Shown: positions 35,417-58,920 of the stretch, piece after piece | How positions within the stretch are numbered: position 1 is the first letter of the stretch | Layout of the letters: each line of letters opens with the position of its first letter | DNA from: Coptis chinensis | Lineage: Eukaryota; Streptophyta; Magnoliopsida; Ranunculales; Ranunculaceae | DNA: 64,000 nucleotides | Reading direction: 5' to 3' | NCBI GenBank assembly: GCA_015680905.1 | Contig: CM027378.1 | Location: 12,133,001 to 12,197,000, forward strand | The notes under the pieces: generated by a model | Told to the model about the DNA's origin: nothing | The model's input: the letters and a program-made list of their open reading frames with translations, nothing else | The model's database searches: none | Program-made: the position numbers and the translations under genes

Positions 35417-38400
35417 CACTACACCATAATAGTTTTTTTGTGACACTGGGTTTTTCTCGTTTGTGACGCCAAACTGGCGTCAGGATGTTTGTGACGGCAT
35501 ATTGGAGTCACAAAAACACTCAAGCCATCACCAATAATTCGATAATTATATCATTTAAATTTTGAGGAGTTTTACTAAATAAAGTGACAGCAAAAGAGCG
35601 TCAAGAATCTCAAAGACTAAAAAATTACAACTAAGGGACCGTGTTTTCTCCAATAAGTTATAACCCAACTTTCTTGTCTCCTTGCAGCGAAAAAAAAAAA
35701 AAAACTTTCTCATCTCCTCCGCCACTCTTCCTCTCAACCTAGAAATGAATGAAGGTTGTCCTGACTCTAGAAACGATTGAAGTATTAAGATCTAGCCTTG
35801 AAATTTCTTTCTACTAATACTGAAGACAAAGATGTTGAAGAAGAAGGAGATGTAGCGATTTTAACTAATGGAGAAAGCTTTCAATTTGTTGAATTATTTC
35901 AAAAATGGGTTTTTGTAGATCTGTTGTTGATTCAAATTTGGAGAAGTCGGCCACCACCGCCATCAAGTAAGTCTCTCTCTTCGCTTCTTATTTTCTCTAT
36001 CTAACACACTACTTCTTCCTTTTGTTCTCTCTCAATATTGTACTTAGTTTTAGCGCCGCTCCATTTGCGAGGGGTCACTTGCACAACAACATATTCGGTG
36101 AATTATCTCTCGCTCTGTCACTTTCATTTCAAATTTTTTGAAGCCTTGAGCAATTTCATTATTACAACACTTATACTTTATTTCAAAACCCCTAATTTCT
36201 TTGAAAAATCAAAATCATCCATTCATTTTTATATTGAATTGTTAAGGTTTCCACTAGATATTTCTACAAAAGCAAAGCTTTTATTTTTACTTTTGATATA
36301 TTGAACTGTTGGATGTTTAATTTTTTTAAATATTGAGATGTCTCTATGTGAAACTCTTACAATTCTTGAGAGCTATTTAAGAGATATGTTGCTATTAAGG
36401 GACCAAGCTCATTCATTTTTCAGCTTTTTCATTTGTTTTATACATAGTGGCAGATGCTTTAAGTTTCCTTAATTTGTTGTATTGTTGTCCTCCCTTGTTG
36501 TTGATTTAAAATGAATATGTGATGATGTAAAACAAAGATGTCCACTGCACTAGTAGTTTTTCCATTGGAATTCTTGGTTACAAGCTCCAGTTAGAACTGA
36601 AATATAGAACGAGGGTTTTAGCAACTGCACCATGTCCTTCCTTCAGGTTCATGAAGCACCATGTCTAGTTTCTGTTACTAATCTTTCTTTATCTCATATG
36701 ATTTGGTGGCCCGTTCCTATTCTACCTCTAGTTGCCTATCATAATGATAACTTTCCTTGCCACAACTATATGTGCCACATACAATAGTTTGTCTATTATT
36801 TGACTATTGTAACTGATACTGTAGTTTTTGACTTGTGGTTGGTTAGTTCTCCTTGAGCTCTACTATTTTTTTTTTGTTGATATGAGAGTGAGTGTGGCTT
36901 TTATGTAACTCATAGTTTTATTTGATTTACAGGTTTGTTGGTTGTCTCTTCAAAGGATAATGAGCCAATCAATAAGTTTGTTGACCTTTTAACACCAATC
37001 GGTTCCCTCTCCTTAATAATCGGGTGCAAATGGATCCAAAGATCTTGAAGCAATACTTGCTAGTTCATGATATCCAAGATGGCACTTCAGAAAAGTATGT
37101 TATACTCTTTTAGCGTCATTTTCTCTACTATGTAGGAGTGAAGAAGCATTGGTCTATATATTGTTTTTTTTTTCCGATAATATGTTATTATATATTGTTA
37201 GTACTATTATTGTAGCTTTTGTAAATGTTTGGTAGCGCTTTTGTAAATGTTTGGTAGCCAAATAGACTTGTGCGAATGGAACTTATGACAGTAGATGTAT
37301 TTTCATAACGTATTAGTAGTATATATAGTTATATATGCATGTATGTATTGGAAAAATGTAAAGTAGTAGTAGTCTCTCGGTGGTGTGTCTTGTGTGGACT
37401 CGTGAGTGTCTGATAATTGGTGGTGGATTGGTGGTGCAATGTGTGAACCGGTGGTGTGCAGTGTGGTAGTGGACTAGGGATGTGCATTGTGTACACTAGT
37501 GGTGTAATGAGTGAACGGATGGTCTGTGGATTTGTTGGTGCAATGGTGGATGGTGATGCGGTACTTGCTACTAGCTAGTGTGTCAATGTGTGAGTGTGCA
37601 GGTGGTGGTGTGAGTATGTTGCTAGCTAGTGTGAGTGTGTGCATGTGGTAATGTGAGTGTCTTTGTTAGCTAGTGTGTGTGTGTGTCGTAACATTTCAAG
37701 TACTATTTTTAGACTAATTCATTTTGCTTATGACTATTTTTAGATTAATTAATTCATTTCAGTATTAAGTTTTTAGCATATCTTATGTCTTGTCCTTGGT
37801 TAGCAGTTGTCATATTCAATATACTCGGGTGAGGTTTATACTTTCTCGTCTTTTATTAGTTGATTAATAAAGTTTTCTTCTTTTTTCGTGAAGGGCAAGT
37901 TTATAGTTGACAAGTTCTTTTCACTTGGTGGGAGCTTTGAAAGTGTTTCATTTCTGCTAAACCTTGGATACTTGCGAAGAAATATACCTTGTAGTTGTAT
38001 ATTGTTGTACTTTAAAATTGATAAGTGTAAAAGTTATTTGATAATAATGTTGAGAGGTATAATGTAAATCGTGAGTGTTCATCCTTGTGTACTTTGTAGA
38101 CTATATTTTTTAAATGTTAAATGGGTTATTTGGCAAGTTTGAGTCATAGTGAAATTTTCAATGTTGAAGATATACTAGTGTGTTTTGTAGATTAATTACA
38201 GTGTTTTTTAAATAATTTTTTTTTTTTTTTTGGACAATTCTACAGGGTACAAGACTGTAAAATGATTGCTCATATAGCAAAATAATAATTATTATTTTTT
38301 TAAAACTAAAACACATTTAGTGACGCCATATAGGCGTCACTTTTTTAAATTCCGTCACAAAAAAAATAATGCCACAATGCCGTCACAAATGAGAAAATGG

Positions 38401-38572
38401 TGTCACATATTTGTGACGCCAAAATGGTGTCACAAAAATTAGTGACGCCAAAATGCCGTCACAAAAATTAGTGACACAAATTGAGACGCCAAATTTTTGA
38501 CGCCAAATAGGCGTCACAAAAATTATTTGTGACGCCAAATAGGCGTCACAAAAAAGCTGTTATGGTGTAGTG
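35417..38572 (+). mobile_element. CACTA element 1, non-autonomous, inside Athila
   Basis: Ends are CACTACACCATAA at 35417-35429 and its inverse TTATGGTGTAGTG at 38560-38572, a perfect 13-bp TIR. Subterminal regions are packed with GTGACGCCAAA/TAGGCGTCAC words in both orientations, the usual transposase-binding arrays of CACTA (En/Spm) elements. The 3-bp flanks are TTC and TTT, so the target duplication is imperfect. No transposase gene is present in 3.16 kb. GT-rich repeats at about 37370-37690 resemble those in CACTA element 2. Confidence 0.88.
36933..37095 (+). pseudogene. Captured exon, probably TRS85/TRAPPC8-like
   Basis: Behind an acceptor TTTACAG (36926-36932): SSKDNEPINKFVDL, then after a one-base shift NTNRFPLLNNRVQMDPKILK and QYLLVHDIQDGTSEK, ending at a GTATG donor near 37096. 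From memory this resembles the plant TRAPP subunit TRS85 (TRAPPC8-like), a vesicle-tethering factor. The match rests on one exon and should be treated as provisional. Confidence 0.5.
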
Positions 38573-39325
38573 TTTGCTCACGGTTCTCAGGTACTTTCTC
38601 TCTTTAATTATTGATCCTTCGAGGACTAAGCATCATTATGTTTGGGGGTGCTTTAAACCTGTAGCAAAAAATTAGGCATCTTGTAGCCTATATATAGTTT
38701 TTATTTTCATATTAATAATTGTACTTAGTGACAAAGTCTTGTTTCCTTTTCAATGATGAAAATTGTCTAGAAATCTCACATTAGTATCCTAATTAGGATT
38801 TGTTTTAAGAAACTTTAGATAATACGTTATGCAATAGTTTATACATCTTTTCATGAATATTCATGTAATCGAGTATCATTGATTGTACATAGCAGCAAGT
38901 AAGTTTCGAACCAACGGTTAGTTACTTAAACTATAAATCCTGTGAGAATCTAACCAAAAGCCTTGATATGAGTGATTTGTGTGTGATGACACGAGGAGTA
39001 GTTTTTCCGATTAGAGGAAATTACGATCTACTTACTTGATCACCACCCAACCCTAGGCGAGAATTTAGGCCTTCTTTGGATCGACATAGCTAAAAATTCT
39101 TACCTTGCTACAAATTTTACCGCTAGTCACTCCACTGAACCGTTCATCAAACCTTTCACTTTCACCAAAATTCCTTACCCATTTATTAAACCAAATAAAA
39201 GAACCTACCTAAGTGAGGAGTATGAGAAATAGGATGAAATGTGGAAAGAATAAAGAGAAAGACTTGTCCCAAATAAAAGTCGGGCCACTTGCTTCAGGAA
39301 AGGAAAATAGAATCATGTTCTTAAG

Positions 39326-39367
<42 letters not shown>

Positions 39368-40164
39368 TTAGTATCTAGAGGCTTAAGAACAAGGTTGGAA
39401 AAACTCAGTTAGAAGAAGGAAAGGAAATAAGGATTTCTCTAGTGTAAATATATGAAGAACCTATTCTCTCATACTCGTAAATTTTGATTATCCATTTCCA
39501 TTTTCTTGTACACTATCACCTAAGCCCCACAATACCTAATAAAGACCTCTAGCTCAATTAGGAGTAGGGTGGTGTGATAATAAGTAGTAGACATGATTGA
39601 TCGACATCGGCTCCTCTGATTGTCATTGAGATGTAAGGAAACGTGTGCCCACTGCACACTGGAGTTAACAAAATCTGAGTGGTAAAATTTTGAGTGGAAT
39701 TGTGTTTCGACACATACCTGTGAGAACCCATTTAGGTACGCTCTCCAAGGGATCCAGAAACAACCCTGCTAGTATATTTCAATGAAAAGTTCACTGCATG
39801 AATAATCATATGTAGATGTTTTAATTATTGAATACATATTAACTTGAGTTTCAAAGAAATCAATCCTTGTTCCCTGCTAAGGAGATGTATGGATATCTGA
39901 GATTAATTTAGGAAATGAGTTTCTGTCACTGAGTAGTTGTAGTATAAATGAAGTTTGTGAGTATCTTTTCTCGAAAAAACTCTTACGAGGCTATAACTCG
40001 TCCACTAGGGAATTCCTAGTGGTTTAAGGCCTTGTTGCATATGGTCAATGCAACCGCACTGCTGAAACGAGAATTAGTTTAGACTACTACACATTTTTGG
40101 CCACTTATCTATTTTAGTGTCTCTTCTTTGCTTGAGGACAAACAAAGTGCCGTTTGGGGGTAAT
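38573..40164 (+). other. Athila 3' untranslated region
   Basis: No gene. Contains a (TA)n tract at 39325-39366 and ends in the polypurine tract at 40151-40163. Confidence 0.6.
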
Positions 40165-40941
40165 GTGATAAGCACCCAAAAGTGTATTATGAAACCCCAT
40201 TGAGACATATAAATTTGGTTAATTATGTGTTTAATAATCATGAAATAAATATGTTTTCATACTTTTGCGGTATTTGCAAGAAACATGGAAATATTGGTTA
40301 AACCTCAAATAAAGCACGAGGAACGGCAGATATATCTGAATTCTCCCAAATCCACACGTAAGCATCAAACTTCCAAAGCTCTTACCTCTCGAACCAGACT
40401 CGAATCGCGACCACGAGAGATGCTCGGATAATCGTATGATGAACTCTACGATAGGCGGAAATTGTAACACCGCCCAAAAATACCGAACCGCCATCGGATC
40501 TGCATTATGGACCCACTATCTTGGGCCACAAGATTGGATGAGCATCAATCATGGAGCATGTCAAGACAAAGATAACAAAATATTGGTGCAAAGTTGACAC
40601 CTTGCATGTAATAAATTAGATTAGGTGTTAATAGTGAAAAAAAAAAGGCAAGGTGTCACTTTGTTTTAATGTGGTGGATAAAAATTCATTAATGTGGTTT
40701 GATAATTCACGTGGGAGGAAATGAGATTTCTCTCAAAATGGAGAAGAAATTAGACAAGGGTGGGGACACTCCATTTACTCCCTTGACTTATTTTCCTCAC
40801 ATGGCATTATTTTAGTTCCTTAGTGAAAGAAATGTAAAGTTAGTTTTAGTTTTTATTAAAAAGCTTGTAATAGTTTTAATGGAGGAACACTTGTTTCTTC
40901 TAGAAAATAAATAGAAGTGAGTTTGATTGTTCATCTTTCTC

Positions 40942-41009
<68 letters not shown>

Positions 41010-41661
41010 GTGTTTTTCTTAGTTTATAAATCCTTGTCCCAAGGATCATGAGCTAACTTCCATTTTGGAGAGTTAATCCAACTCATGTGAGGGTAAACCA
41101 ATTGTTGTTGGTTTGGTAGGTTTAGGAAGAACAACTAACTCTACATCCTATCCCAAAATGGTAGTTGGTATAGAGTTTAGTTAGGAATTAAGCAATGAGC
41201 TTAGAGATAAGTCATTGTTTGGTTTCACTTGCTAGCATGTATGAGCTCTTTAGTGAGCCATGCATGCTAGGGATCAAATCTATTTTTCCGTTAGGGACTT
41301 GTCTATGAGTCTAGGAAGAATCAAAACCTTTTTCAAATCAACACTAATGATAGTTTCACATGAGGAGGATTAACTCTCCACCTTCTCTTTCAAATCTCTA
41401 TTTCGGTATTAAGTGAATGTTTTCAACGTTAATGTTTTCTTAATGTTTATGTAGGAAGGAAAAATCTAGCATTTATATTATGACCTTACTCCTTAGTTTC
41501 CCTTAATTGTAAATTCCAATTTGTAGTTGTTCTAAGCTTTAGTTTAGTTCGAATCTTTATTCCAACTCTACGAAACGAAGATCGTGAGTAAGGAACCTTG
41601 AGTGCTTTTGCATCAATTCTTAGAGATCAAAACTCTAAGTAGTAGTAAAGAGCATATATCA
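40165..41661 (+). repeat. Athila 3' LTR
   Basis: Same start and end as the 5' LTR, with a (CT)n tract at 40941-41007. It is preceded by the polypurine-type tract TTTGGGGGTAATG (40151-40163) and upstream GCTTGAGGACAAACAAAG, a common arrangement before the 3' LTR of Athila-like plant elements. Confidence 0.93.
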
Positions 41662-41666
41662 TTTCT

Positions 41667-43939
41667 AAATGGTGTATGCATTGCAATTATATAACCTTAC
41701 AGTTTAGAATGGTGATACTTGCTTGGTGGTAGGTATATAGTGATTGTAACTGAGATCGGAGAACTACCACCAAATTGCAAAATAATAATAATAATAAATA
41801 AATAAATAAAATCAGGGTGAATTGCTAACACGTATTCATAATGTGAACGAAAGGTCTTCTAAATCTACTCATTGGGATTCCTAGTGCATCTACATGTATA
41901 CCATTCTAGTAATGGTCTCACGTCCATTGAGAGTAGTCTCAAAAGAAAATAAAAATTTCAATTACAGTATAAGTCCCCACATTAATTCAATAGCTCATAA
42001 TATTCACATATGATTAGCATTAGTCATGTGGGGATAAATTAATTAGATAAATATGCTAATCTAATAAAAGATTTAACATAGGAATGTTAATTAGCCAATA
42101 TGAGAAGACAACACTAAGTGAAACACCAATAGTGATCCCAAGCTTCATGAGCATTCACTTTACACCAATAATTAGTGTTTTTAGGAGTAGAGAGAAAACG
42201 ACAATGACGGAGTCGCCTTTGATACACGGTGATGGCAGTTGCTAAGGGTGGGTGGGTTTTCGGAGTAGTTTACCAATAGTTCCAGTTTCTTAGGTTGTAT
42301 TCCACGTGGCACACTCTCTTTGGTTTGTGTTATACTCTAAACTCTGATAGTCTAATCTACTGAGAAAATAAATTGATTCTAAAATAGACCTTACTATTAT
42401 ATATATATAAAGGTCCCTTATATAAACGTGTAAGTAGGATTACTAACTTGGTTGCACTCTGTTACTTGTTAGTAAATAAGTTAGACATACTTATTTTCCA
42501 GAGATTGCAATTGGTGGACCACATTCAACCATCAATTTAGTGCTTAAAAAGGTAATGGGTTACTAACGTGAGGGAACACTTGCCATCAATTTGCTTTTTG
42601 TCGCTGAATAGCTTACTTGAAGATCAAAAACATGTTTAGAATTTCAGATCAGAAGATCTTAGGAATCACTTCTAATCACTTTTCGAAATCACCAGTTACA
42701 TACGTTTAAAACCTACAAATTAAGGCATACCGAAAACCACCACTTTAAAAAAAACAGTGCACCTATTTTCACATGGAGACAAATAGTAACAAAACTCAAC
42801 TCTTTAATTTATCAACCTCGTTCAAAGCATTTACAACTCATATATCTAGATGATTCCCGTAAAAAGGTTAAGATAAATAACTTTACTTAAAGATTGTCAT
42901 AATGCTAACATTCATTGATCTATACTTTCTCCACAAAAATACACTATTTAGATCTACAGCTAAATACTAACCTCATCTTGGAAAAAACTCAAAAATTGCT
43001 CGCACTTTCGTTCTTGCTGAAAACCCTCAACAGCCAAACCTTCATTGCCAAGACCCTGTCCACATCAGCTACTTTGGCTAGAGATATGGCCACATCTAAA
43101 GTCTGCAACTCATAATAACTTGGTACTCAGTTTCAAGGGAAAATGTCTATACCATGACAAAATCAATTCAATATGTTCAATAGGTATAGGGTCCAAAATC
43201 AATTCCAAATGGTCAGTAGTAGTATTTGTTCTAATTTTTTTTGGGATAATCTGTGAACGGGTCTCTCCTTTATAAATGCAAATTTACTCAAAACCAAAAT
43301 CAACAATATCATGGATGTTTAAGAGAGCAGAATGGTGGGGTTGTTAAATTTTGTATAAATCGTAGTCTATACAATTTTACGGGTGCTTGAGGGTTGAGAC
43401 GCCAAAATTGATTGAATAAATTTCATCTAATGGTACTCAATCATCCAGTTGGAGCTTGGGCTTGGTTTTTCTTTTTTTTGTTGTGTCAAAATGAGGCAAG
43501 AGAAGAAGTGAGAGCAAGAGAGAATTATATTATTAAAAGGATTTCCTACCTGTGAAGGAAAGTTTTCAAGGAACAATCTCCAAACACCCCACGAAACTGG
43601 CTAGTCAATGAAAAAAGATGTTGAATGTCTCGCTCTCCAGAAGACAAAGAGCATAATTATTAACCAACACCGTACTATGTTTTTTTCCGCATTTCAACTG
43701 ATAATGTTCTCCCCAAAACCAATCTAACATCACTCTATCATTCTTAGTTTAATTTTGGAAGAAGAGAAAAATAAAAAAGAGGGTTTGAAGAGATGAATTT
43801 TTTTTTGGAGAGTTGGAAGTGTTTTGTAGAATTGAAAAAAAAAATATGGAAAGAGGTTTTTATTTTTTATGAAAAATCTGATGTGTCAGTCTTAGAGAAA
43901 AAAGGGGGGTTGACGTGGGTCACTGGGAGCATTCTCAAC
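41667..43939 (-). other. Helitron 1, 5' part
   Basis: Continuation of Helitron 1 beyond the Athila insertion (TTTCT at 41662-41666 is the right target copy). No recognisable captured exon. A palindromic CCACGTGG occurs at about 42302-42309. Confidence 0.45.
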
Positions 43940-44128
43940 TACTCAGTATTAATGGTCTTTGAAGTATAAATGTACTCAATGGGTATATGGTATACCAAGT
44001 TTTAATTCGTAAAGCCATAGCGATCCATGATTAAGATAAATCCACGTGGCACATAGGGTACATTTGGTATTCTATCATAGGAGGTTTTTTTTAAAAAAAA
44101 AAATTGAAGGCGTTAAAATGGGAGGCCA
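43940..44128 (-). repeat. MULE right TIR, inner part, left of Helitron 2
   Basis: Inverse of about 10113-10300 of the left TIR, with scattered substitutions. It ends at A44128, directly before the TC of Helitron 2. The first bases (43940 to about 43960) are MULE sequence between Helitron 1 and the TIR. Confidence 0.7.
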
Positions 44129-44194
44129 TCAAAGAATGCTCCTAGTGAATGAAATATACACCCTTTTGTAGCCATCAAAGAATGCTCCTAGTGA
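44124..44194 (+). repeat. Duplicated Helitron 5' terminus
   Basis: GGCCA|TCAAAGAATGCTCCTAGTGA at 44124-44148 recurs as AGCCA|TCAAAGAATGCTCCTAGTGA at 44170-44194, 46 bp apart, both preceded by A. Either a later Helitron inserted right behind the first end, or replication started twice. Confidence 0.85.
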
Positions 44195-44288
44195 GTGTTT
44201 TAAGTTGGAAAGAACACTTTTTTAATTAACTTTGGAGAAAAATTGGATCCACGTCATTGATTTAAGACTGTGAATGTTGAATATGCAG

Positions 44289-44469
44289 GGAGGGAAGCTT
44301 TGAGAGCTGCAAAAAAGGAGTATGCTAAAACTGAAGATGATTTGAAGTCTCTTCAGAGTGTTGGCCAAATTATTGGAGAAGTTCTTCGACCTCTTGATAA
44401 TGAGCGATGTAAGTATTTCGTGCGCTTGCACTTGGTTCCCATCAAAATTGATGAGCGATTGTTTAACTG

Positions 44470-44501
<32 letters not shown>

Positions 44502-44585
44502 CCCAGTGATTGTTAAAGCCAGTAGTAGCTCGAGATATGTTGTTGGCTGCCGGAGTAAAGTAGATAAAGAAAAATTGACTGCAGG
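44289..44585 (+). pseudogene. RPT4: Captured RPT4 (26S proteasome ATPase) exons
   Basis: Exon 44289-44408 gives [20 protein letters not shown] and [17 protein letters not shown]. An intron 44409-44506 (GTAAGT..TCCCAG, with a T-run) follows, then LIVKASSSSRYVVGCRSKV and DKEKLTAG. This is the coiled-coil and OB-domain part of RPT4/S10b of the proteasome regulatory particle, close to the functional protein. The fragment ends after KLTAG at about 44585, where the functional gene would continue TRVVLD. The ATPase domain is absent. Confidence 0.92.
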
Positions 44586-44656
44586 ACTATTAGATGAGAA
44601 TGAGTCTTAAAATTTCAGATTTCGGATTGTCCGCTTTACCGGAACAGCTTCGTTTA
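44586..44656 (+). pseudogene. Captured CIPK kinase fragment
   Basis: Directly after RPT4: LLDENE, a one-base shift (TCTTAAAATT), then LKISDFGLSALPEQLR. The DFG and the GLSALPEQ stretch are diagnostic of CBL-interacting protein kinases (SnRK3). Only about 24 residues around the DFG remain. The RPT4 frame stops at the TAA at 44608-44610 within this piece. Confidence 0.85.
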
Positions 44657-44716
44657 TCAGATTGAAGTTCATTTGCCATCAGCTTCTTCACTAACGGGAA
44701 TAGATTTATCTATTCT

Positions 44717-44857
44717 TTGAGAATAAGTGGTTGGTTTTCTGTCATTGGGCAAGTTTTTACCCTGTCGTCGGTGGTGACGATGGTGTTCTTGGGTTATAAA
44801 TGTGAGGCCAAATGTGAGTTCAAAGCTATCTTCAACTTTGGTGACTCTAATTCTGAT
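44717..44857 (+). pseudogene. Captured N-terminus of a GDSL esterase/lipase
   Basis: A signal-peptide-like hydrophobic segment (VFTLSSVVTMVFLGY) followed by CEFKAIFNFGDSNSD, the first block of plant GDSL lipases including the nucleophile Ser in GDS. Functional genes continue TGGF; here the sequence passes in frame into the ARIADNE RING1 domain after the Asp codon at 44855-44857. No usual ATG is visible; the open frame extends from a TTG at 44717. Confidence 0.85.
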
Positions 44858-45210
44858 AATTGTAGAATTTGTTTTGATGACTTTCTTCATAGAGATATGG
44901 TTACTGTTGCGTGTGGTCATTTGTTTTGTAAGTTATGTTGGAAGGGATACATTACTACTTCAATTAATGATGGCCCTGGATGTTTAACAATGAGATGCCC
45001 TGAGATTAAGTGTGTTGCTTCTGTGGGTGACGAGTTGGTGAATAAATTAGTTTCGATGAAGAGCGTTGGAAGTACTTGCGTTTCCTGCTTCGATCATATG
45101 TTGAATTTAAAAAAAGAATTAAGTGGTGCCCAACTCCGGATTGTAACGATGCGGTGGAGTTTGTGGGTGGGAGTTATGATGTTTCCTGCAATTGCAAACA
45201 CAACTTTTCT
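44858..45210 (+). pseudogene. Captured ARIADNE (RBR-type E3 ubiquitin ligase) fragment
   Basis: RING1 with CRICFDDFLHRDMVTVACGH..CKLCWKGYI and INDGPGCLTMRCPEIKC, then (after a one-base shift near 45055) [21 protein letters not shown] and [19 protein letters not shown] of the in-between-RING region. This order is that of plant ARI proteins. RING2 with the catalytic Cys is missing. The upstream frame (44717-45214) is a 165-codon GDSL-ARI chimera. Confidence 0.9.
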
Positions 45211-45240
45211 TTGAACCGCCTATCGACCCGCTACCGCTAC

Positions 45241-45521
45241 TACATCAAAAAAGATGCCAAGGCTCTTCAATTCATTCAAGAAATTACCAAAAATGCTGAT
45301 TCCGTTCAAGAGAAGGTGTTGGCCCAAATATTGACCCAGAATGCTCACACCGAGCTTCTCAGAAGATACAAATTGGGAGGAGCAACTGACCGCGATACCT
45401 TTAAGTCAAAGATCCCTATGATCACTTATGAGGATCTTCAGCCAGATATCCTACGAATTGCTAATGGTGATCGATCTCCTATCCTCTCCTCTCACCCTAT
45501 CTCCGAGTTCCTCACCAGGTG
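45241..45521 (+). pseudogene. Captured first exon of a GH3 acyl-amido synthetase
   Basis: [60 protein letters not shown] and [12 protein letters not shown], then the donor GTGAGT at 45522. This is the N-terminal exon of GH3 proteins (auxin or jasmonate amido synthetases). It is in frame with the ARI piece through about 30 nt of unassigned sequence, so 45076-45522 is a 148-codon ARI-GH3 chimera. The following GH3 exons, which carry the main ATP/AMP-binding motifs, are not present. Confidence 0.9.
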
Positions 45522-47635
45522 AGTTTGTATGTAGTTCATTTTATTATAACGATCATCAATATATGGCTTAGACTTTGGAATGGTAATATGCACCCTATCT
45601 AAACAACGTTAGTACTGATCGATCAATCTTAAGAAAAAGGAAAAAAAGAGACATAATATATATGAATGACAAATGCGTAGTACTGAATCACTCGATCAGT
45701 CAAGATTCAAGAATGTACACGTCCCTCAATGCAAACCTTTGCTCACTTTAATTGCTTCCTAAGTTAGATTTCTAAGCTAAATATGTGCTTGGATCATGCC
45801 TTGAGGTTTTGGCTTCCTCAGTTTGCACTTAACCCCTTGCAGATTGTGTAGGGTGAGATGTGCCAATGGTTGCAATGTCATTTCCTAGAATGATTGAATG
45901 ACGTGAATAGTTTTACTAACATAAACGTGCTTCCCGAGAGTCCTTATGACAAAAATATAACTATTAGTGCATATGAATTTTTATGAACTTATAATTATAG
46001 TTATATTGTTGAAGTTATAATTAGAGATATTATCTTACGAGTGAAAGAAAGGCAGCTTATTCATTGTTAGAGATCTTCCTTTCCCTGGCCTAAGTTAGGC
46101 CATAAACTCACTAATAAGTTCATCTGCAGAGATTCATAGTCGTGCTGCTGTTTTATTGATTTTTTTCTTTCTAACTTTGCGTAGAGTCATTCTCTTTTAG
46201 TTAGTCTTTTTAGAAACCATCTTCTACTATTGCCTTCTCCACGAAACTCTCTCATAGCATATTGGATATGTGTCATTCCTTGATCTCTCGATATCACATT
46301 AAGTTGGGTGTTCTCTCGATACCATTATTTTACTCTTTAACCTTTGTGGAATTTATCGAACTGCTATTCAGGTCGTTTAAAGACCATATGAACTACTTAG
46401 CTAGATTGAATTTAAGTGTCACTTTCACTTTTTAGTTGTTAAAGTTGTAATGAAGTCATGGTTCATGAAACAAATATGATCATTCTCCATACATAATTTT
46501 TACTTAAACTAGAAGGTATGGTTGGTTTTCTTTTAAGCTTAGTTGATTAGATAAACGTTGTGACTGTTGGTCAGGTAGCACCACTTTTTACAAAGGGGTT
46601 AGTCACTAAATTAACGATAGAGAGGAGGGAAAGTAGTGTTAGTTAAACTAATTAGTTTACATCCCCTAATGTCACAATTTTTTAACAATACTACTAATCA
46701 TTACATTAAAATGATTATAGGCATTTGTTGAACTAACAAGTCAGTGTTGTTAAATGATTTTCTGGGAGCTTTACGTGTTGTGTTATTCTAGCAATTAAAA
46801 GATTATGTCATATTTCTCATGAGTAGTTTGGTAGACGTACTGTATATATAAACCTATATATTGTCTCATAGGATTGGAGATTACATATCTACTTCAGTAT
46901 TGAGATTGTTGTTGTGGCTATCATGCCCTTTGTTGGAGGTCAATGACACCATTCTCAAGTGGTTGGGATATGCACTTTGTGCATTCCACGGGTTGTGTTT
47001 GGAGTGTAAGTTCTCAACCACCAAGTAATTAGATCGCTCATTATTTTAACCAGGTGAGAAGAGTTCATAATGCAACTAACTTTACGCATGTTTCGAATTT
47101 TACACATGGTGAGAATAAACCATCATAATACAATAAAACCAACTTGACAAGGAGTAGCTTATTTGTTGTGGTTTGCAACCCCAATCATCCTTATTAATCT
47201 GCCTCATAGGTGTTTGACTAAATGCTAAGGAAGAAAATAGTAATGAGTCCGAGACCCAAGTCTATGCTAATATGGCAACAGAGGAATTATTACATTATTT
47301 CTTACCCTTCTCTAGCTAATTTATTAGACTCTTGGTTTCTTTTTACTGGGAATTGGTTCCCTAAAAGTTTTGGTTTCTTTCAATAAGGTGGAGTTTGGAT
47401 TTTTTTTTCTTTGTATGTAGTGATTTAAAGGGTTGAGTTTAAATTCATGATTCGGTATGAATTTTTTTTCATATGATGCATGTATTCAGCTTTAAGATCA
47501 TGTTATAGTTGTTCCTGCAAGCATTTTAGATGCCATACTAATCAATATCATGTTAATGCTTTGTATTTGACTTTCTTTAACTTTTGCAAATTAATCTTTT
47601 GTTGAAATGGAAGTCCAAATACATTAGGTTTCAGT
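45522..47635 (+). other. Helitron 2 interior after GH3, unassigned
   Basis: Begins as the GH3 intron. AT-rich. A stretch near 46876-47008 between AG and GT looks exon-like but is not recognised. AGT at 47633-47635 is the left target copy of CACTA element 2. Confidence 0.4.
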
Positions 47636-48374
47636 CACTACACCATAACTGTATTTTTGTGACACTGGGCTTTTTCAGTTTGTGATGCCAGTAAGGCGTC
47701 AGTAAGATTGTGATGGCAGATAGGTGTCAGTAGTGAACTAAAACCGTCACTAGTAATCAGATAATTACGGAATTTATTTGTTAGAGTTTTTAAAAATAAA
47801 GTGACGGCAGGCCAGCGTGGTTTCTGAAAAAAAAAGTTAACGCTTTCAACACGTGGGGACTTCATCTCTCTCACCTGTTCTTATCCCAAAGAAAAAAAAT
47901 CTCTAAACTTTACTCTTTTTCCCCAATCATGCAAATGGCAAACCCTAGAAACTCAAGCCCTCCTTTGCGAATCAGTTTCCTACAAATTGATCTCTGCCAT
48001 CTCTTCTCACAACAATTGCCTTTTATCTGTGAATTTCTATGCTTATCTTAAGCACAAGTAAATCTCAATCCTTCACTTTAGTTATTCACACTGGGGCTTT
48101 TTTTTAAGAAAATATTATTTGAAACATCATGTACATCTTTTGCTTTGGTTTCTTTTGAAATTCAAGTGCGCATTTTGTAATATGGAATATATGCTTCGCT
48201 GAAGAGCACGAAAGAAGCATTGAGGACATTGCAACTATTCGAATTCAAACTGTATTTCCGGGATACAAGGTAAGTCACGATGTTTTCATCAACCTTCATT
48301 CCTTGCATTACATCCTATTAATTATTCAAGTCTCTTTACTTAAGCTGCTAGTTCATTTATATTTCACATTGTGT

Positions 48375-48640
48375 GGTGGAGAACTGGTGATGTGCATTGT
48401 GTGGACTGGTGGTGCAGTGTGTGAACTGATGGTGTGTAGTGTGTGGTGGTTGATTGGTGGTGTGCATTGTGTGAACTGGTGGTGTGCAGTGTGTCGTGGT
48501 GGACTGGCCGTGTGCATTGTGTGAACTGGTGGTGTGCAGTGTGTAGTGTGTCGTGGTGGACTGGTGGTTTGTATTGTGTGGATTGGTGGTGTGTAGACTG
48601 TTTGTGTGCAGTGTGTGATGGTGTACTAGTGTGCAATGGT
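48375..48640. repeat. GT-rich minisatellite
   Basis: Irregular repeats of words such as GTGTGGACTGGTGGTGTGCA. Related GT-rich repeats occur at about 49740-49860 and in CACTA element 1 at 37370-37690. Long open frames on both strands here are a product of the repeat. Confidence 0.85.
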
Positions 48641-48647
48641 GTGACTG

Positions 48648-49564
48648 GAAACGCTTCAACGAATATCCACAAAATTGGGAACCAGACAATGGAATGTGAA
48701 CCAATTCTTCTTGGCCGAATGTGCCAAGGTTTTAGTATAACCACACCAGGGTCGCTGTCGGATACCTTGAACAATGTCACTTGTGATTGTACTTTCAACG
48801 CCTCCACCATTTGCCATGTCACAAACATGTATGCAATTTTCTTAATTTACACAAAGATCAAATGATTCTACAACGTTTTCAATTGCTACATAATATGTTC
48901 TACATTTTTAATAGTTGTGTTTTTGTTTCAATTTCAGTTAGCTCAAGAGTTTGAGCTTAGAGGGAGAATTACCAGTTAACTTGGCCAACCTCACTTATTT
49001 GCGCAAAATGTAAGCCTGGATCGTTTTTCCCAATTGAGTTTTACCAAGGCCAATTATGAGCTATACTATCCAAGGCCCAGACTCAAGTTTCATGGGCCTC
49101 ACTGTATTTGGCCCAACAACTCTTTCCCTTACATTTGACTATTTGAGAATACTTGAAATGGAAGTTGGGTCTTGATTTTTCTCTCTCATGCGGAGACCGA
49201 CTCAAACTTTTTGAATGGGTCTATTCCAAGAACTTGAGCTTCACTTCCTCTCGCCATTTTGTAACTACTTTTCCTTCATAGGCTAACTTAAGAGTTGCAT
49301 ATTTATTTAACTCAGATTATACTAGTCAAGTATAATAAGTATCTACATTACATTATCGTCTCTTTGTTGGGAAACTTTATCGATGGAACCATTCCAAGAG
49401 AAATCGGTAGTATCGCTACTCGAAGAACTTTAAGATTCCAAAATGAGTACGAGTAAAATCGTGATAATGCCAATTATACTATACTAACCCAACTTAAATT
49501 ATTTGCAGGTTCTTGCAAGACAATAATCTTGGAGGACCCCTTCCTCTAGAGCTTGAAAATCTGC
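48648..49564 (+). pseudogene. Captured LRR receptor-kinase (LRR-VIII type) exons
   Basis: Exon to 48828: ETLQRISTKLGTRQW, shift, then NNVTCDCTFNASTICHVTN. Exon 48938-49009: LKSLSLEGELPVNLANLTYL. Exon about 49369-49437: GNFIDGTIPREIGSI. Exon 49509-49564: LQDNNLGGPLPLELENL. The CDCSF..CHVTNI signature followed by LRR exons of this size is typical of the LRR-VIII-2 receptor kinases (At1g07650/At1g53430 group). Only ectodomain exons are present, with frameshifts; no kinase. Confidence 0.85.
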
Positions 49565-50226
49565 GTAAACCCTTTTGCCTTTTGCCACTGTATGATAATT
49601 TTAATTGCCTTTATTTAAGTGGTCGATTGGATTTCCATTTATTTGCATAAACTTCGCTCTCATTTTGTGGTGGTAATCGGATCGGTGCCGCTGGCTACCG
49701 CCGGTAAATCGCAGTCTTCCGTGTGCTGCTAGCTAGTGCATGAGTGTGTGCAGGCGGTGATGTGAGTGTGTGCATGTGGTAATGTGAATGTGCTGCTAGC
49801 TAGTGTGTGAGTGTGTAAGTGTGTGCATGTGGTAATGTGAGTGTACTGCTAGTTGGTGTGTGTGAGAGAGAAAGAGAGAGAGAGAGAGAGTGTGTGTGTG
49901 TGTAGGTGGTGGTGCCTGCTGCTACTGCTGGGTGTTGTTGCTGCCGCTGGTGCCTACTACTGCCATGGACCTCTGCTGGTGCCCGCTTCGCTGGCTTTGG
50001 TGGTGTCGCTAGAGGAAATGCCTCTGTACCTGTTATGGAAATGACCAAGTGCTACTTTCTTTAAAAGGTTGGAAGGTCTTCAACCGTGTGAAGTCTCCGA
50101 ACTAAAACCTGGCATTCACATATTTGCTGTCTATGGTCTAAACTATTTCCCTTCTATTTAATTAGCTTCAGGTTCTGGTACTAGTATATTGGACATTTTA
50201 TTAATTTCTATTTAAATTTTCTTTAG

Positions 50227-50375
50227 GGGACAATTTTTTCAAGGCTGCTAGCTATACCATTGAAGCTTCTTTGTGCAAAATCCTTTGAGGATACCTCAGA
50301 GAAGCTGAAAGAGATTGAGTCACAAATCTTAAGGAAGAGAAATGAACTGCAATGCCCGAGACCGAATATAGAAAG
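50227..50375 (+). pseudogene. ARG1: Captured ARG1 (DnaJ-like gravitropism protein) exon
   Basis: NFFKAASYTIEA, one extra T, then LCAKSFEDTSEKLKEIESQI and LRKRNEL, ending at GTATG 50376. This is the coiled-coil part of ALTERED RESPONSE TO GRAVITY 1/DnaJ15, far from the J domain. A further shift after RNEL spoils the end (the bases still fit TEYRK). Confidence 0.85.
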
Positions 50376-50426
50376 GTATGTCATTACTTTCCCAAATAGA
50401 AAGTATCTACAAGTGTTTTCACCCGG

Positions 50427-50508
50427 GGGATAAACTTTGTGATGCAGTTGATGACTTGAAGCTTGATTCTCTTGTGGTTGGAAGCCGAGGTTTAGGAATG
50501 CTGAAAAG
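50427..50508 (+). pseudogene. Captured universal stress protein (USP) exon
   Basis: [20 protein letters not shown] and RGLGMLK, followed by a GT. This is the part of plant UspA-like proteins with the G-x-x-x-x-x-G nucleotide-binding motif beginning at VVGSRGLG. It lies 51 bp after the ARG1 exon in the same orientation, with a GTATG..AC spacer between them. Confidence 0.8.
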
Positions 50509-50600
50509 GTTCTACTCTTAACAGATCCTAAATGCTAATAAATTTCATTTTTTTTTTTTTTTGAAATCATGCATGTGGCGAGCATATTATGTTACGAATC

Positions 50601-51004
50601 GCACGGGTTAGTGAAAATTGTGTATATTGACTAGTCAATAGTTTGTTTTAGTGGTTCCTTAGCTTGTATTGACTAAGGTCTAGTTGAAATAAATTTTTTC
50701 ATTTTATGAAGGAAAAATGAACATCACCGAAGATCTGTAGAGCTGCCTTGGGTCCGGGTATATGTTGTAGAGCCGAGACCGCCAGAGAATCGTCAAGGAG
50801 ACTGCACGGTTAGTGAAAATTGTATATATTGACTCGTCAATAGCTTGTTTTAGTGGTTCCTTAGCTTGTATTGACTAAGGTCTAGTTGAAATGAATTTTT
50901 TTCTTTTTATGAAGGAAAAATGAATATCACCGAAGATTTGTAGTCACCCTTGGTCCAGTGTGTATGTTTTAGAACGAGACCGCCAGGAGAATCGTCAAGG
51001 ACCC
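50601..51004. repeat. 203-bp tandem duplication in CACTA element 2
   Basis: The unit starting GCACGG at 50601 is repeated at 50804, with several substitutions (for example TTGACTAGTCAATAG against TTGACTCGTCAATAG). Confidence 0.85.
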
Positions 51005-51650
51005 CATGCTCTTGCTTCTTAAGATGTGATCTTGAGTTGTTGTATATGAATTATATTGAAATAGTATGTTGGTAGATTATGCTATATCCATACATCTATA
51101 TCTTTTAATTTACATGTTATTCATTAAGTGATATATATACTTAGTCAAATTTTGGTGATGGTTATTACTAAGATTTTTTTTGTGTATAATTGCTTGTAAA
51201 GTCTTAATTATATTATGTGTTTGGGGTTTATGTGGTTGTATTTATGCAGGCGATTTCAGGGGAATATAAATATTATGATGGAAACCAAAAACAAATATAT
51301 ATATTTTTTAAAATAAATAATAATTTGTGACGCCTGACAGGCGTCAGTAAGCATTTAAAAAAAACCAAATTTATAATTACTGACGGCGTAGCATTTAAAA
51401 AAAACCAAATTTATAATTCTTGGCGTAGAAAGCCGAGAAATGCAAATTTAGTGACGGCGCACAAGCGTAGTAATGCATATTTAGTGACGGGCGCATGTGC
51501 GCCGATAAATATATGTCAATTATGACGGCGTTTACGTCACAAATATTTCTGACACCAACACAGACGCCTAAATTCCAACGCCTTGTAGGCGTCACAAAAA
51601 ATAATTCTGACGCCTACTAGCCGTCACAAAAGTGATGTTTGGTTGTAGTG

Positions 51651-53088
51651 AGTGGTGCCTCAAAGGCGATTGATAATAAAGCATATGGATACTAATTAAG
51701 GTACTTCCTCACCGCCTTTAAACAATTTACTGTGTTATGAGTTGGTATGTTTGTTTGATTTACCCTAGCGTAACAATCATCTTCTCCGACTCATGAAATG
51801 CGAGGAGTAGCATGATCTAAAAGAATGGTTAGAAAAGAAAGTTTGGTGCTATGAAGATGATAACTAAATGGTCAAGTTTGGTTGATATTGGTGTCTTTCA
51901 TATTGTTGTATGTAGCTGGCCTATATAAAAGTAGCTCGCTTATTAGATATATAATCTAAGACTTTCTAAAGTGTAAACCTATCATATTTAGGATTGATAT
52001 TAATTTTTTGCTCACTCAAATAGTTTACCAATTTGGTGCCGCCCTTTTATTCAGATGCTTGATTTAACCCCGTTACACGCCAAGTTCACTAAGCCGAAAG
52101 CATTAGTACCTTCTTTTTGAACCGAGTTTTTTGTTGTCTCGGTATAGATTAACTCAAGCTAATTTGAATGTTACAAGCTAATACATTGGTTACAGATACC
52201 GAAATTTATAGTTTTAAAAAAAGTTAGATAGAAGCAATGCCACAAAAAAAAAAAAAAATGGCTGAGTTTCAAAAAAAAAAAGAAAAGAAAGACAAAGTCA
52301 TGCAGCCAAGATTTCGTTAAGGATTCATCTACATTTCGTTACGAGATCCAAGATTTTTTTACTGTAAACTTGGGATTTTTATTAAACCATATCAAACCCT
52401 GTTTATCTATTATGTATTGGCTGGAGATACTTGGACCTGTTTTGATAATTGTGGAAGCTATAGTTTCAAATTATCTTTTGGACTGGATTGTCTTTTTTCA
52501 TTTTGAGGGATCTCTCTCGCTCTCTCTCCCTAAGTACCTTAAGTTTAATGGATACTTGATTATAGCATGTTAAGATATTATGTAGTAATCTACTGGTCGA
52601 TTTTGGAAGGTTGGGCTCAAGGTCTTGGGTTCGGTTCCCACCTTCACCGGGGAAAAAGTGGAAGACAGGGATTTGAGAATGAAGTCCTAAATATAGAGAA
52701 GATAAAGAGTAAGAAGTGACCGGAGATACTGGGATCCTATTTGATGATTGTGAAAGCGATTTTAAGCCTTCTAGATTTCATCGTCTTCTCACACTAAATA
52801 ATGCAAGTTAAAGGTTTTCTGCTTTTCCTTTTTTTTTTCTGGGTTTCGACATTGGCCAATAGTTTGAGCTGTATATGGAAATCATCAAATGACACCTCGA
52901 AGTCTCTGGACTGTTTAGTTATGTATTGGTAACCAAGGGTAGACATTTTTACAGTCTACAGTTGGCGCTCTTATTAGTCTTATATTTCCCATATTGTTTC
53001 TACATTTAATTTTCTCCGAGATATGCCAGTCTGGTCACTAGTGGTTATGCTATGTTTGTTGATGTTGTGTGCAACCTTCGCGTCTCAG
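51651..53088 (+). other. Helitron 2 interior, unassigned
   Basis: A/T runs at 52242-52295 and a CT-rich patch at 52510-52530. No recognisable exon until the DUF707 piece. Confidence 0.4.
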
Positions 53089-53615
53089 GTTGAACATCAA
53101 AGTCATCGAAATCTATTAGCAATTTCAGCTGGTATTAAATAAAAGGAAAATGTTGACACCATTGTTCAGAAGGTATTTCTTTAATCAGCGTGCTGGATAT
53201 TTAAAGCAAAAGATTTTTCATCTAATCTCAGAAATTTCAGTTCTTTTCAGAAAATTTCACTGTTATTCTATTCCACTATGATTGCAATGTGGACGGGTGG
53301 CAATATCTTGAGTGGAGTAATAAGGCTATACATATCGTTGCTCATAACCAAACAAAATTGTAAAACTCCAACTCATTCGTAGTACTCCTTGGGGAGATCA
53401 ATATGAAAGGTTCAGGGCATTATGTAATTAGCGTTATGCCCAAACCACTTTGATTAATGGTCAACTTAACAGAACAATAAACCCTAATCTTGCATATTAT
53501 GTTTCTTTGCCAGGTGGTTCGCAAAGCGGTTTCTTCACCCTGATGTAGTTTCCATCTATGATTACATATTTATATGGGATGAAGATCTAGGAGTCGAGAA
53601 CTTTCACCCACGGAG
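53089..53615 (+). pseudogene. Captured DUF707-family exons
   Basis: Exon 53089-53172: NLLAISAGIK, stop TAA, KENVDTIVQK. Exon 53241-53359: FFSENFTVILFHYDCNVDGW, YLEWSNKAIHIVAHNQTK. Exon 53514-53615: WFAKRFLHPDVVSIYDYIFI, WDEDLGVENFHPR. Order and junctions agree with plant DUF707 proteins, Golgi-type membrane proteins of unknown activity with a WDED motif. The TAA stands where the family has Gln (CAA/CAG). Later exons are missing. Confidence 0.9.
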
Positions 53616-56203
53616 GTACATATTAAGAGTTTGGAATATTTTCAATGTGATATTGAAACGTTTTCTTATCCTAAAGTTTTCTGTCATGGTTTAGTTCCTC
53701 AGAGGAGTTGGGAATAATTAAGGGAGGGGTGTTTCCTGCTCTGTGTGGGGTCTATTCAGAAGCAAAAGTCAGCCCTTTTTCAAAAACATTGAACTATAGC
53801 ATGCAACTTTCTTGAATTTGATTGAAAATATCAAAATATTGTATTGAATCAACGTCATAGGGCCAACTTTTAGTTGTGGTAACTAACAGTCATGATGTAA
53901 ATTATACAATTTTTTAGTACATTTTAGACGCGCTAGAGAAACTAATGCCTTCTTAGGGAAGGAACTAAATTGTCTCGAGGCTTAAGGGTTATTTAACTGT
54001 TCTGACATTCGTCGAGACGGTTAAGTAACTGGATTAAACAATGAGATATCTATATTGTTATGATTTTCAGGTTATGACAGAATTTAAGTTTATGAAATGT
54101 TAAAAATACAGAGGAGATTCTGCCGAAATTTTTGGAAGATTATTCTGTCTTTGTTTAGTTTGGGTTTTGCTTAGTTGGTCCGATCATGTCCCAAGTTTCA
54201 TAATGACTGTAGATGCCATGTGTCTTTGGTAATCAGTCATTATAAAATTTGGGGCGTGACATAGTTGATGGCAGATGACATGCACCTTGGTATTGTCTTA
54301 ATATGGTCAAATATATAAGTAGGAAGCTAGGAGTTACATGATTCGTCATGGGTTAGGGGGTAACGAATCAAGCAGTAGCTAGACTTGCTAGCAATGTTTT
54401 TGAGTGTGGTTGATGATGCTATTTTGAACTTTGCTCCTCCACTGAATGTATAGTGGAAAAAACTCTCTGGGGTATATATGATACAAGTCATTGAATGCAG
54501 CTGACAAGGTGTTCCTCTCTAGCTATATTTTGGCACATTTAACGTCCAAAGTTCCTATATGTTTTGGTGATGCGGTACGTTGGCTACTGATGATGCATGA
54601 GGATGATAATATATCGAGTAGGTGTGTGCACTTGCTTAGCATTGTTCCTAGATTATTCACGTTTTTATGTTATATTATATCTAACATGGTATATGCAATC
54701 TCTTTAACTTATAGTTTTCTCACATGGGTTTTTACGGTTATATGTACATGTTGTGTGGTAATGTTGAACTTGCTTCTTTATAAAAGAGATGTGAAGATTG
54801 ATGTGCATTGTTGGTAGTGACTCGATGATATATAGATCTACAATGAATTTTTTTAATTTCTTTGTTTTTCTATTAGGTCTATTTGAAGAAAATTTGAATG
54901 TGGGGGATTTTATCGTAGTTGTCTTTTTTCAAAGTCAATTGTTTTGGTTGGTTGATTCGAAGTGGGAATCAGCTAAGGACTTGGCATGTTGGAGATACTA
55001 TGTAATTGATCGATTTCCCTTCAAAATGGAGAGAAGTTGAAACCTAATACGGGTGGTATTGGCCACTGATTGCTACAAGACATGACATTAAAGGAAACTT
55101 CAAGTTTCTTTGGCAATATTGAAGCCAACAAGCCAACAACTGCGGAACACATTCAACTATAAAGAAAGAAGTGGAATGAACACATTGTTTGGGAAAAATA
55201 AAATACATAGTAGAAAATATTCTTATATTAGTTAGTTTAAATTGGTACTCGCCTCTTGATATTGTTGTGTTAAGGTTGTAGTATTATTCTTTTATATTAA
55301 TATGTGTATCTATCAGGGAACATTTGCATATGTTTATCTTAGTTTTGCCTGTAAAATATTTTTGCTATGTTTTGGTATACATCTCACATATTCTATTACT
55401 ATCTTAAAAAACAACGCATTAAAATCAAACAAGAGGATGAAGAACCAAATGCCAAGAAATAATATCTATGAATTCAGGTAATTTATTCATTCAATAATGG
55501 TCATAAATAAAATATTGAAATAATAAATAACTGACGCTAAAAATTAATCTTATTGCAGGACAGATTGCGATTGACTCATCAATGGACTCCTGACATATAT
55601 AACGAAGTGCGCTAAAAAATTTACGTTGCAGACATACAAAAAAAATGCTCAAGTTATATGTTGAAAGTTACTTTTATTAAATATTTTTGTTATTCTAAGG
55701 GATAATATACCTACATTAAACTCACTCTTCGGTCATTGTCTTTCATTTAAACTATTTGTGATGAAACTTACTGCAACAAACACATTTTGTCAATTGTCTT
55801 TCCAATATGCAACATATGTTGGTAGTCAATTTCACTGGAGTTTTTTAGTCAGCTATTCAACGAACATATTATATTCTATGTTGGCTATATTTCCATAGTG
55901 GTAATAGAAACATTCTTACAGTGGTGTTGTTTTACCTATATTCTTTGAATTGATTGTGTTCAGCCCATTGTCTCATATTCTGCTACAAGCTTTCTTTCAG
56001 TATGATTTACTGATTATTGAGTAGCTTGCTTAACTTGGTTGTTGAAGCTCAACCTTTTAGCCAATGTTGCACATTGTTTGATGGTCATCCGATTTTGAGC
56101 TTAAAGCTTTATACCTTGGTGAATCTGTGGACTCGGTAAATGTATCTATCGTTGAATCCTTTGGAATAGGCTCTAGGCAGAATGTCATGTTGCTAGATCG
56201 AAC
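53616..56203 (+). other. Helitron 2 interior, unassigned
   Basis: Open frames at 54491-54817 and 54798-55040 are Leu/Phe/Tyr-rich and not recognised. Exon-like pieces near 55436-55482 and 55560 have splice-like borders but no family. Possibly further captured DNA. Confidence 0.35.
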
Positions 56204-56525
56204 TAGCAACATTTGAACAATAATTGATAGGATCAGCACAACTCCCAATCTTTAGGTCTAGAGAAAACCCGCTACGCAAACATTCGCCAGAAGGTGCTAC
56301 TAGGTCCCATACTCCTTCATCGCCGAAGAACGACAACTTATTGCAAATGAAAAATAATAACCCAAAACTAGAAACAAAACCCTTCAAAAAAAAATTAGAA
56401 AAACATAAACCCTTCAAACAAACTATACATATATTATAAGCAATGAATCATTAGCTATCAATATACATATATTATTTATTCAAGTAGACTTTAGGCTTTT
56501 GAGTCATTAGCTATCTATGTAGCAA

Positions 56526-56555
56526 GTCCGGCCATAGGCCAGGCCAAATGGCTAG
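56526..56555 (+). other. Helitron 2 3' hairpin and CTAG end
   Basis: CCGGCC, loop ATA, GGCC-A-GG (one bulged A), then CCAAATGG and CTAG. This is the structure recognised at the end of rolling-circle transposition. Confidence 0.85.
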
Positions 56556-56600
56556 TGTCTAAAGAAAATTAGAGTAGGGATATGTCTAATTCCCAATTAT
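56556..56600 (-). repeat. MULE right TIR, outer end, right of Helitron 2
   Basis: Starts with T56556 directly after CTAG of Helitron 2 and reads TGTCTAAAG.. to ..TCCCAATTAT, the inverse of 10067-10112 with a few changes. A second copy at 57254-57298 lies in the tandem duplication 56903-57600. Confidence 0.75.
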
Positions 56601-57685
56601 GATATGTATAAAAAAAACCCTAAATTTTAAACATCAAAGATGAGAGAGACCATCAAAGACAACTAAGTGGGAGCCTCGTGCTCAATAGCTCAAGGCTAGT
56701 ACACTTAATGCACAAGGATCTGCAATAACCTTGATGGGTACCAGACTACCAGGTAGTGCAAAGGGCACTCTCTTATTGTCAAAGTTTATTGTGGTCACTC
56801 AATTTTCAATAATAGTTAAGTGCGTTGTGGGTGTGACATGTGTGTGGGCGTCAGTGTGTGATGTAAACTGTAGACTGTGAAGAATAAAACGGACGGGTGG
56901 AGTAGCAACATTTGAACAATAATTGATGGGATCAGTACAACTCCCAATCTTTAGGTCTAGAGAAAACCCGCGACGCAAACATTCGCCAGAAGGTGCTACT
57001 AGGTCCCATACTCCTTCATCGGCAACCTGACAACTTATTGCAATAGAAACAATAATAACCCAAAACTAGAAACAAAACCCCTTCAAAAAAAATTAGAAAA
57101 ACATAAACCCTTCAAACAAACTATACATATATTATAAGCAATGAATCATTAGCTATCAATATACATATATTATTTATTCAAGTAGACTTTAGGCTTTTGA
57201 GTCATTAGCTATCTATGTAGCAAGTCCGGCCATAGGCCAGGCCAAATGGCTAGTGTCTAAAGAAAATTAGAGTAGGGATATGTCTAATTCCCAATTATGA
57301 TATGTATAAAAAAACCCTAAATTTTAAACATCAAAGATGAGAGAGACCATCAAAGACAACTACGTGGGAGCCTCGTGCTCAATAGCTCAAGGCTAGTACA
57401 CTTAATGCACAAGGACTGCAGCGTAACCTTGATGGGTACCAGACTACCAGGTAGTGCAAAGGGCACTCTCTTATTGTCAAAGTTTATTGTGGTCACTCAA
57501 TTTTCAATAATAGTTAAGTGCGTTGTGGGTGTGACATGTGTGTGGGCGTCAGTGTGTGATGTAAACTGTAGACTGTGAAGAATAAAACGGACGGGTGGAG
57601 AACCTGCAACAAAATAACTTTTTCATTTAATTGGGGGAAGATATCAAAATTGAGATTTCAAAAAACTTCACGAAATTATTAAGTA

Positions 57686-58160
57686 CTAGTATATAGTCGG
57701 TGCCCACGACACTATTTCAAATTAGGCCCAAAAAAACTCCAACCAACATAATGATAAAAGCCTAGCCCACAAAATAGCCAATCAAATCAACAATAATTCA
57801 ATACTCTTTCAAATTAATATTGTAAACTGGGCATACTCTATAAGACTTTGGATATGCCATGTTGCAATTTGTGAAATACAATAGTAGCCACCGGGTGGGC
57901 CCCTACGACCCCCACACCAAGTTTTTTTTATTAGATACTAATATATAGCCCGTGCCCAAGGCACTGTTTTAAATTAAGCCCAGCCCACAAATCAGCCATT
58001 GTTCACCAAATCAACAATGATCCAATATTTTTTCAAATTAACATTGTAAACTACATATATCTTATAAGACTTTGGATCTACCATGTCACAATTTGTAAAA
58101 TACAATGATAACCGTAGAGTGGAGTCCTGCGCCCCACACCAAACATTTTTATTAGAAAGA
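57686..58160 (-). mobile_element. Two short diverged Helitron-like repeats in tandem
   Basis: Copies of about 240 bp start near 57686 (CTAGTATATAGTCGGTGCCC) and 57938 (CTAATATATAGCCCGTGCCC). Both share AAATTA.GCCCA.., CCAATCAAATCAACAAT-like and TAAGACTTTGGAT words. Read on the minus strand they end in a GTGCC..GGCAC hairpin and CTAG or TTAG then T, a small non-autonomous Helitron pattern. Confidence 0.5.
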
Positions 58161-58704: not shown

Positions 58705-58920
58705 GTAAACTGAAGCTATGTTTCTTTTCTTCTGTATTTGTAGTCTAAGATTAGATTTGTTTTAATCCAATTCAACTGTATGTATTTAATGTAAAAAGGT
58801 GTGAGGGTATGTAGATTCATTTAATCTAATAAGAGACTCTTGAAGTGGTTTTGTTTTCCATTCTAGTTTCATAATCTTTATTTTCAACACCCAATGAGAT
58901 GTTTTCTCAATATTATGCAG

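Follow-up and report, generated by a model that had tools for sequence, protein, structure and literature searches.

A Coptis chinensis element, very probably a Helitron, with five host-gene fragments packed into 1.24 kb

Introduction

Helitrons start with TC, end in CTRR and insert between A and T, according to excerpts of PMC3288121, and they make no target duplication (PMC4289320, likewise in excerpt). The closest described systems are the non-autonomous helA and helB Helitrons of maize, which have the same TC start, CTRR end and A/T insertion as the element reported here, carry several unrelated gene fragments and have multiple termini (PMC3288121). Excerpts of the same paper give 0-12 gene fragments per helA element, with a mean of 3. 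In the insect Helitron Hel1 the captured pieces are internal to the element, and such internal fragments have been argued to be filler DNA (PMC6544945, in the excerpted part). Pack-MULE and Pack-CACTA elements are likewise DNA transposons that shuffle host fragments (PMC13317346, in excerpt).

Here we analyse a window of 64,000 nucleotides from Coptis chinensis (assembly GCA_015680905.1, contig CM027378.1, positions 12,133,001 to 12,197,000 of the forward strand). We take the element at 44129-56555 on the plus strand, with a probability of about 0.9, to be a Helitron with captured host-gene fragments. The fragments derive from six unrelated genes or more. The element is 12,427 bp long, or 8,409 bp after subtraction of a nested CACTA and its AGT duplication. 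It comes from another plant lineage than helA and helB and has different terminal sequences (5' TCAAAGAATGCTCC, 3' palindrome GGCCATAGGCC), and its five pieces abutting in 1.24 kb contrast with the single gene segment found in 90% of maize Helitrons of 1-2 kb (PMC3288121, as excerpted). For insect Hel1, the loci that gave rise to the captured pieces have been identified, with end junctions of 2-13 bp (PMC6544945, in the excerpted part). An earlier note on this DNA had called the array of pieces a remarkable example; the density is indeed unusual, but the word has to be toned down, as the maize excerpts already report 0-12 fragments per Helitron (PMC3288121). The kind of gene shuffling is thus already known, while the cargo is unusually dense and very compact. 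Our literature search for Helitrons in Coptis gave no paper with either word in its title or abstract. What the locus offers is a Helitron whose ends are defined to the base, whose empty site also falls within the window and whose cargo is unusually dense.

Results and Discussion

Five host-gene pieces in 1.24 kb

Pieces of five host genes, RPT4, CIPK, GDSL lipase, ARIADNE and GH3, follow one another head-to-tail in this order at about 44288-45518 of the plus strand. To identify them the region was translated and each piece was compared with Pfam, PDB chains and protein sequences. The RPT4 (26S proteasome ATPase 10B) piece at 44288-44587 comprises two exons (about 44288-44408 and 44507-44587) separated by a 98-bp GT-AG intron (44409-44506); its left edge is blurred, with AG directly before 44288. 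Among PDB chains it matched 8amz_L ('AAA domain-containing protein') at E 2.8e-31, and chains labelled 26S subunit 10B or RPT4 start at E 7.9e-20. The CIPK kinase piece (44588 to about 44653), which covers the DFG region in about 22 residues and contains a frameshift, is the weakest of the five. It matched CIPK23 in the PDB at E 8.8e-5 and the Pfam Pkinase family at E 0.032, below the cut-off, and it agrees with a Coptis CIPK (P0166) at 16/18 residues (E 1.6e-4); among the matches listed in the protein search, the Coptis CIPK appears at E 0.045 compared with E 0.012 for the top CIPK match.

The third piece is the N-terminal part of a GDSL esterase/lipase, aligned over 44708-44857 with a left edge somewhere in 44654-44708. 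No match turned up in Pfam or among PDB chains up to E 10, but when about 5.8 billion proteins were searched, the first rank went to a GDSL esterase of Coptis chinensis (P0121, E 3.3e-16). P0121, which is annotated as partial and starts near the CIPK/GDSL joint zone, is 84% identical to 44708-44857 over the aligned part (E 1.2e-20). The fourth piece, from 44858 to about 45222, encodes RING1 and part of the IBR of an ARIADNE RBR E3 ligase; it is free of introns, has one frameshift at about 45055, and matched Pfam IBR at E 6.6e-11, ARIH1 in the PDB at E 2.9e-18 and Coptis P0002 at 94% and 79% in its two frames. The last piece is exon 1 of a GH3 gene (about 45223-45518, left edge within 45223-45247), followed by the splice donor GTGAGT from 45519, with matches to Vitis GH3-1 in the PDB (E 1.2e-38) and to Pfam GH3 (E 2.2e-29). 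Among the matches listed, the best full-length GH3 match was from Kingdonia (86%) and the best RPT4 match from Vigna, with no Coptis GH3 or Coptis RPT4 present, and the best ARIADNE, GDSL and DUF707 matches (the last of these is described below) were all from Coptis chinensis.

Two of the joints are sharp, RPT4/CIPK at 44587/44588 and GDSL/ARIADNE at 44857/44858, and the other two are placed within 44654-44707 (CIPK/GDSL) and 45223-45246 (ARIADNE/GH3). The reading frame is kept at all three assessable coding joints, namely RPT4/CIPK, GDSL/ARIADNE and ARIADNE/GH3, for which chance would give 1 in 27, a regularity that was noticed post hoc. The resulting open reading frame is broken in the window copy by the CIPK and ARIADNE frameshifts. 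The earlier note had listed the same five pieces in this order on the plus strand, and each was recovered by protein or domain comparison, the protein searches returning five different families. Our CIPK/GDSL zone lies near its 44660-44715, and its claim that RPT4/CIPK and GDSL/ARIADNE join with no filler holds as read at the codon level only. Its list was however incomplete, as a sixth host fragment lies further downstream.

This sixth fragment came to light through a second Coptis protein (P0001, see below), the tail of which matched window positions 53028-53084 and led to a piece of a DUF707 gene at 53089-53615 on the plus strand. Its exons, with limits read off the sequence, lie at 53089-53172, 53241-53359 and 53514-53615, and the introns are retained. 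The piece matched PF05212 at E 6.6e-39, is about 93% identical to Coptis P0242 and contains one in-frame stop. All six recognised fragments share the plus strand, which is the element's own 5'-to-3' strand, as the earlier note had said of its five. Comparison of 10 internal ORFs with Pfam gave nothing convincing as further cargo (best E 0.11); an Rfam search of 41600-58800 gave no hit, and neither did scanning the whole window for tRNAs. A flanking exon (from 58924 on) had no match among the best 120 of 3565 matches in a protein search that scored the 7995 candidates with the most words in common.

The RPT4, GH3 and DUF707 pieces were captured from genomic DNA, since introns are retained in RPT4 and DUF707 and the splice donor in GH3. 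The general claim of genomic capture made previously thus stands for RPT4 and GH3, whereas the ARIADNE piece, being intron-free, is uninformative on this point.

The ends of the element

Both ends were fixed by means of an empty site, a paralogue that also lies in the window (10067-10296, minus strand). In a sensitive comparison of window parts, 44105-44129 and 56556-56600 matched adjoining stretches of this one locus, 10067-10136 on the minus strand. The joined flanks agree with it in 62/70 columns; no gap falls at the joint, and a single 1-base gap lies in the 3' flank after 20 columns. The alignment scores 97, and none of 1000 mononucleotide shuffles exceeded 29. Of the 3600 boundary pairs tried, 44128/56556 came out best, in a tie with 44129/56557, and the peak corresponds to A^TC...CTAG^T. 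In a random-joint control 4/3000 joints were bridged elsewhere: LTR copies account for two and a CACTA end for one, and the fourth bridge is weak (E 3e-6). The 5' TC at 44129-44130 was set from the empty site and not by its motif, the 3' CTRR is present as CTAG at 56552-56555, and A^TC and CTRR^T edges are jointly expected in about 6 per 100,000 random window-position pairs. The empty site reads ...ACA|TGTC... at the joint, and the element lies between A44128 and T56556 without target duplication. With 8/70 columns differing, the empty site is a paralogue and not an allele. The earlier note had placed the collage in a Helitron without giving its ends; the empty site and the canonical termini bear this out, and both ends are now known to the base. 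The element is non-autonomous as far as seen, with no Rep/helicase among the 10 internal ORFs compared with Pfam (E up to 0.5), nor by eye in stop-free stretches.

The 5'-terminal 20 bp (44129-44148, plus strand) recur exactly at 44175-44194, 46 bp downstream, and both copies are preceded by GCCA; the downstream copy is either an additional 5' terminus or the product of a short duplication. Apart from this repeat within the same element, the 5' end was not found elsewhere in the window. The 3' terminal region (56518-56555, plus strand) consists of a degenerate GC-rich palindrome followed by CTAG. In Helitrons a palindrome of 16-20 bp is placed 10-12 bp ahead of the 3' end. Its hairpin is weak in the window copy, with a DNA fold z of -1.54 and 13/200 shuffles folding as well (second fold z -1.50, 15/200). 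About 175 bp ending at 56555 match 14070-14231 on the minus strand at 86%, and the match continues about 6 bp beyond CTAG. This relative has, at 14070-14112 on the minus strand, a perfect 6-bp stem with a 3-base loop before CTAG|T (z -2.47, 2/200 shuffles). Scans for a hairpin plus CTRR picked up the relative at 14076 and missed the true 3' end because its palindrome is degenerate. A low-score hairpin/CTRR site on the minus strand inside the collage (44679) was taken as chance, and hairpin-like ends seen by eye near 57687 and 57937 were rejected as the 3' end of the element, being on the minus strand and so in the opposite orientation.

A second sequence and the rival explanations

P0001 (IFM89_031888, Coptis chinensis, 269 aa) combines ARIADNE, GH3 and a DUF707-side exon, and no other protein among the best 120 of 1667 matches unites a GH3 domain with an IBR domain. 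Its exon matches window positions 53028-53084 at 84% (E 4.2e-5), and its last residues run up to the stop that the window, too, has at the edge of the DUF707 exon. In GH3 the two are identical at 83/88 residues, and P0001 therefore derives from other DNA, as 5/88 residues differ. Both share an E-to-D change in ARIADNE relative to P0002. The first 81 residues of P0001 have no window match better than E 5, and RPT4, CIPK and GDSL were not seen in it, so that P0001 backs only the order ARIADNE, GH3, DUF707.

P0001 speaks against an assembly artefact, and the worry that the order of pieces is an assembly chimera is weakened. The repeats of the window (a gypsy-type element and two CACTAs) could mislead an assembler and the RPT4, CIPK and GDSL joints rest on the window alone, but we found no support for a chimera. 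With the same ARIADNE, GH3 and DUF707-side order coming from other DNA, and with an exact Helitron boundary around the collage that misassembly would not be expected to give, we regard a chimera as extremely improbable. The same holds for a Pack-type TIR transposon (Pack-MULE or Pack-CACTA) as the carrier, a reading to which we give hardly any credence. Host fragments do occur in such elements of plants (PMC13317346, in excerpt), and CACTA terminal repeats do flank the collage (38545-38572 and 47636-47663, 89%). These repeats are however inside-out, TAGTG preceding CACTA, and each is part of a different CACTA outside the collage (35417-38572 and 47636-51650), the latter with a clean AGT duplication and the former with only TTC/TTT. 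Among the 25 pairs listed of 30 in 38000-52000, the other inverted repeats that span the collage are simple repeats or the CACTA subterminal pair 38520/51324; a 26-bp, 85% pair at 44397/47019, counted among them, has an arm inside the collage. We met no TIRs in the right order around the cargo among these pairs and rejected CACTA and Pack-MULE as carriers. Pack-MULE and Pack-CACTA elements have terminal inverted repeats and target duplications, and both are absent from the Coptis element, the ends of which are TC and CTAG.

The collage might also be kept as a chimeric gene in which a single frame joins the signal peptide of GDSL, the RING and the N-terminus of GH3, with the fusion under selection. 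The three in-frame joints point in this direction, as does the annotation of P0001 as a gene without the ARIADNE frameshift. Annotation does not equal expression, however, and P0001 lacks the residues at the ARIADNE/GH3 joint, as if spliced out, and ends in DUF707-side sequence, while the window copy carries the CIPK and ARIADNE frameshifts and truncated RING/IBR and GH3. We therefore consider selection for the fusion unlikely.

How the pieces may have been captured

We propose that double-strand break repair inside the element brought in the five packed pieces as filler DNA, and that this repair may have used template switches between unlinked genes. The element would afterwards have been copied by rolling-circle transposition, and the collage would later have decayed via frameshifts and the CACTA insertion. 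We infer filler DNA because the pieces are internal, 0.16 kb from the 5' end, and no terminus is recognised between them; under the model in PMC6544945, this internal position near the 5' end fits filler DNA better than 3'-end bypass. The hairpin scan found no plus-strand 3' end within the collage, although the same scan missed the true end.

Whether the pieces came in a single repair event or by stepwise capture is a matter of about even odds. Stepwise capture, in which the five were added singly in the course of several transpositions, is a serious candidate that falls somewhat short of being the favoured one. For maize Helitrons it has been described on the basis of nested relatives (PMC3288121, in excerpt), and the varying identity to the nearest Coptis protein (GDSL 84%, ARIADNE 94% and 79%, DUF707 about 93%) could mean different ages, but each of these identities is measured on a different protein, and constraint confounds them. 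Moreover, no element sequence is recognised between the pieces and no partial relatives are in hand. As another sequence shows the same order, a comparison of copies could decide between one event and stepwise capture. A far bolder version of the single event, in which successive template switches at one break, with the frame kept by chance or selection, made a new secreted RING-GH3 fusion gene that is still spreading in the genus, strikes us as a long shot.

Neighbouring elements

The CACTA at 47636-51650, nested in the Helitron and flanked by the 3-bp target duplication AGT, is a later insertion and not the carrier of the gene pieces. A tandem duplication of about 700 bp (56204-57600, plus strand; 684/692 ungapped columns, 98.8%) spans the last 352 bp of the Helitron and 347 bp of flank; since it includes the Helitron 3' end together with flanking DNA, it is later than the Helitron insertion. 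A gypsy-type LTR element occupies 20505-41661, with LTRs of about 1.5 kb (97.8% identity without gaps) and the target duplication TTTCT, and the CACTA at 35417-38572 sits inside it.

Elsewhere in the window, 19209-19652 (minus strand) holds part of a gene for a reversibly glycosylated polypeptide (PF03214, E 3.9e-50), which, as a guess, is perhaps cargo of another, minus-strand Helitron with its 3' end near 14076. At 57687-58156 two tandem 76% repeats (57758-57935 and 57976-58156) lie beside GC palindromes and, on the minus strand, CTAG/TTAG-like ends that by eye look like the 3' ends of another Helitron family. The N-terminal part of a MuDR-family transposase is found at 10823-11986 on the plus strand (PF03108, E 9.6e-10).
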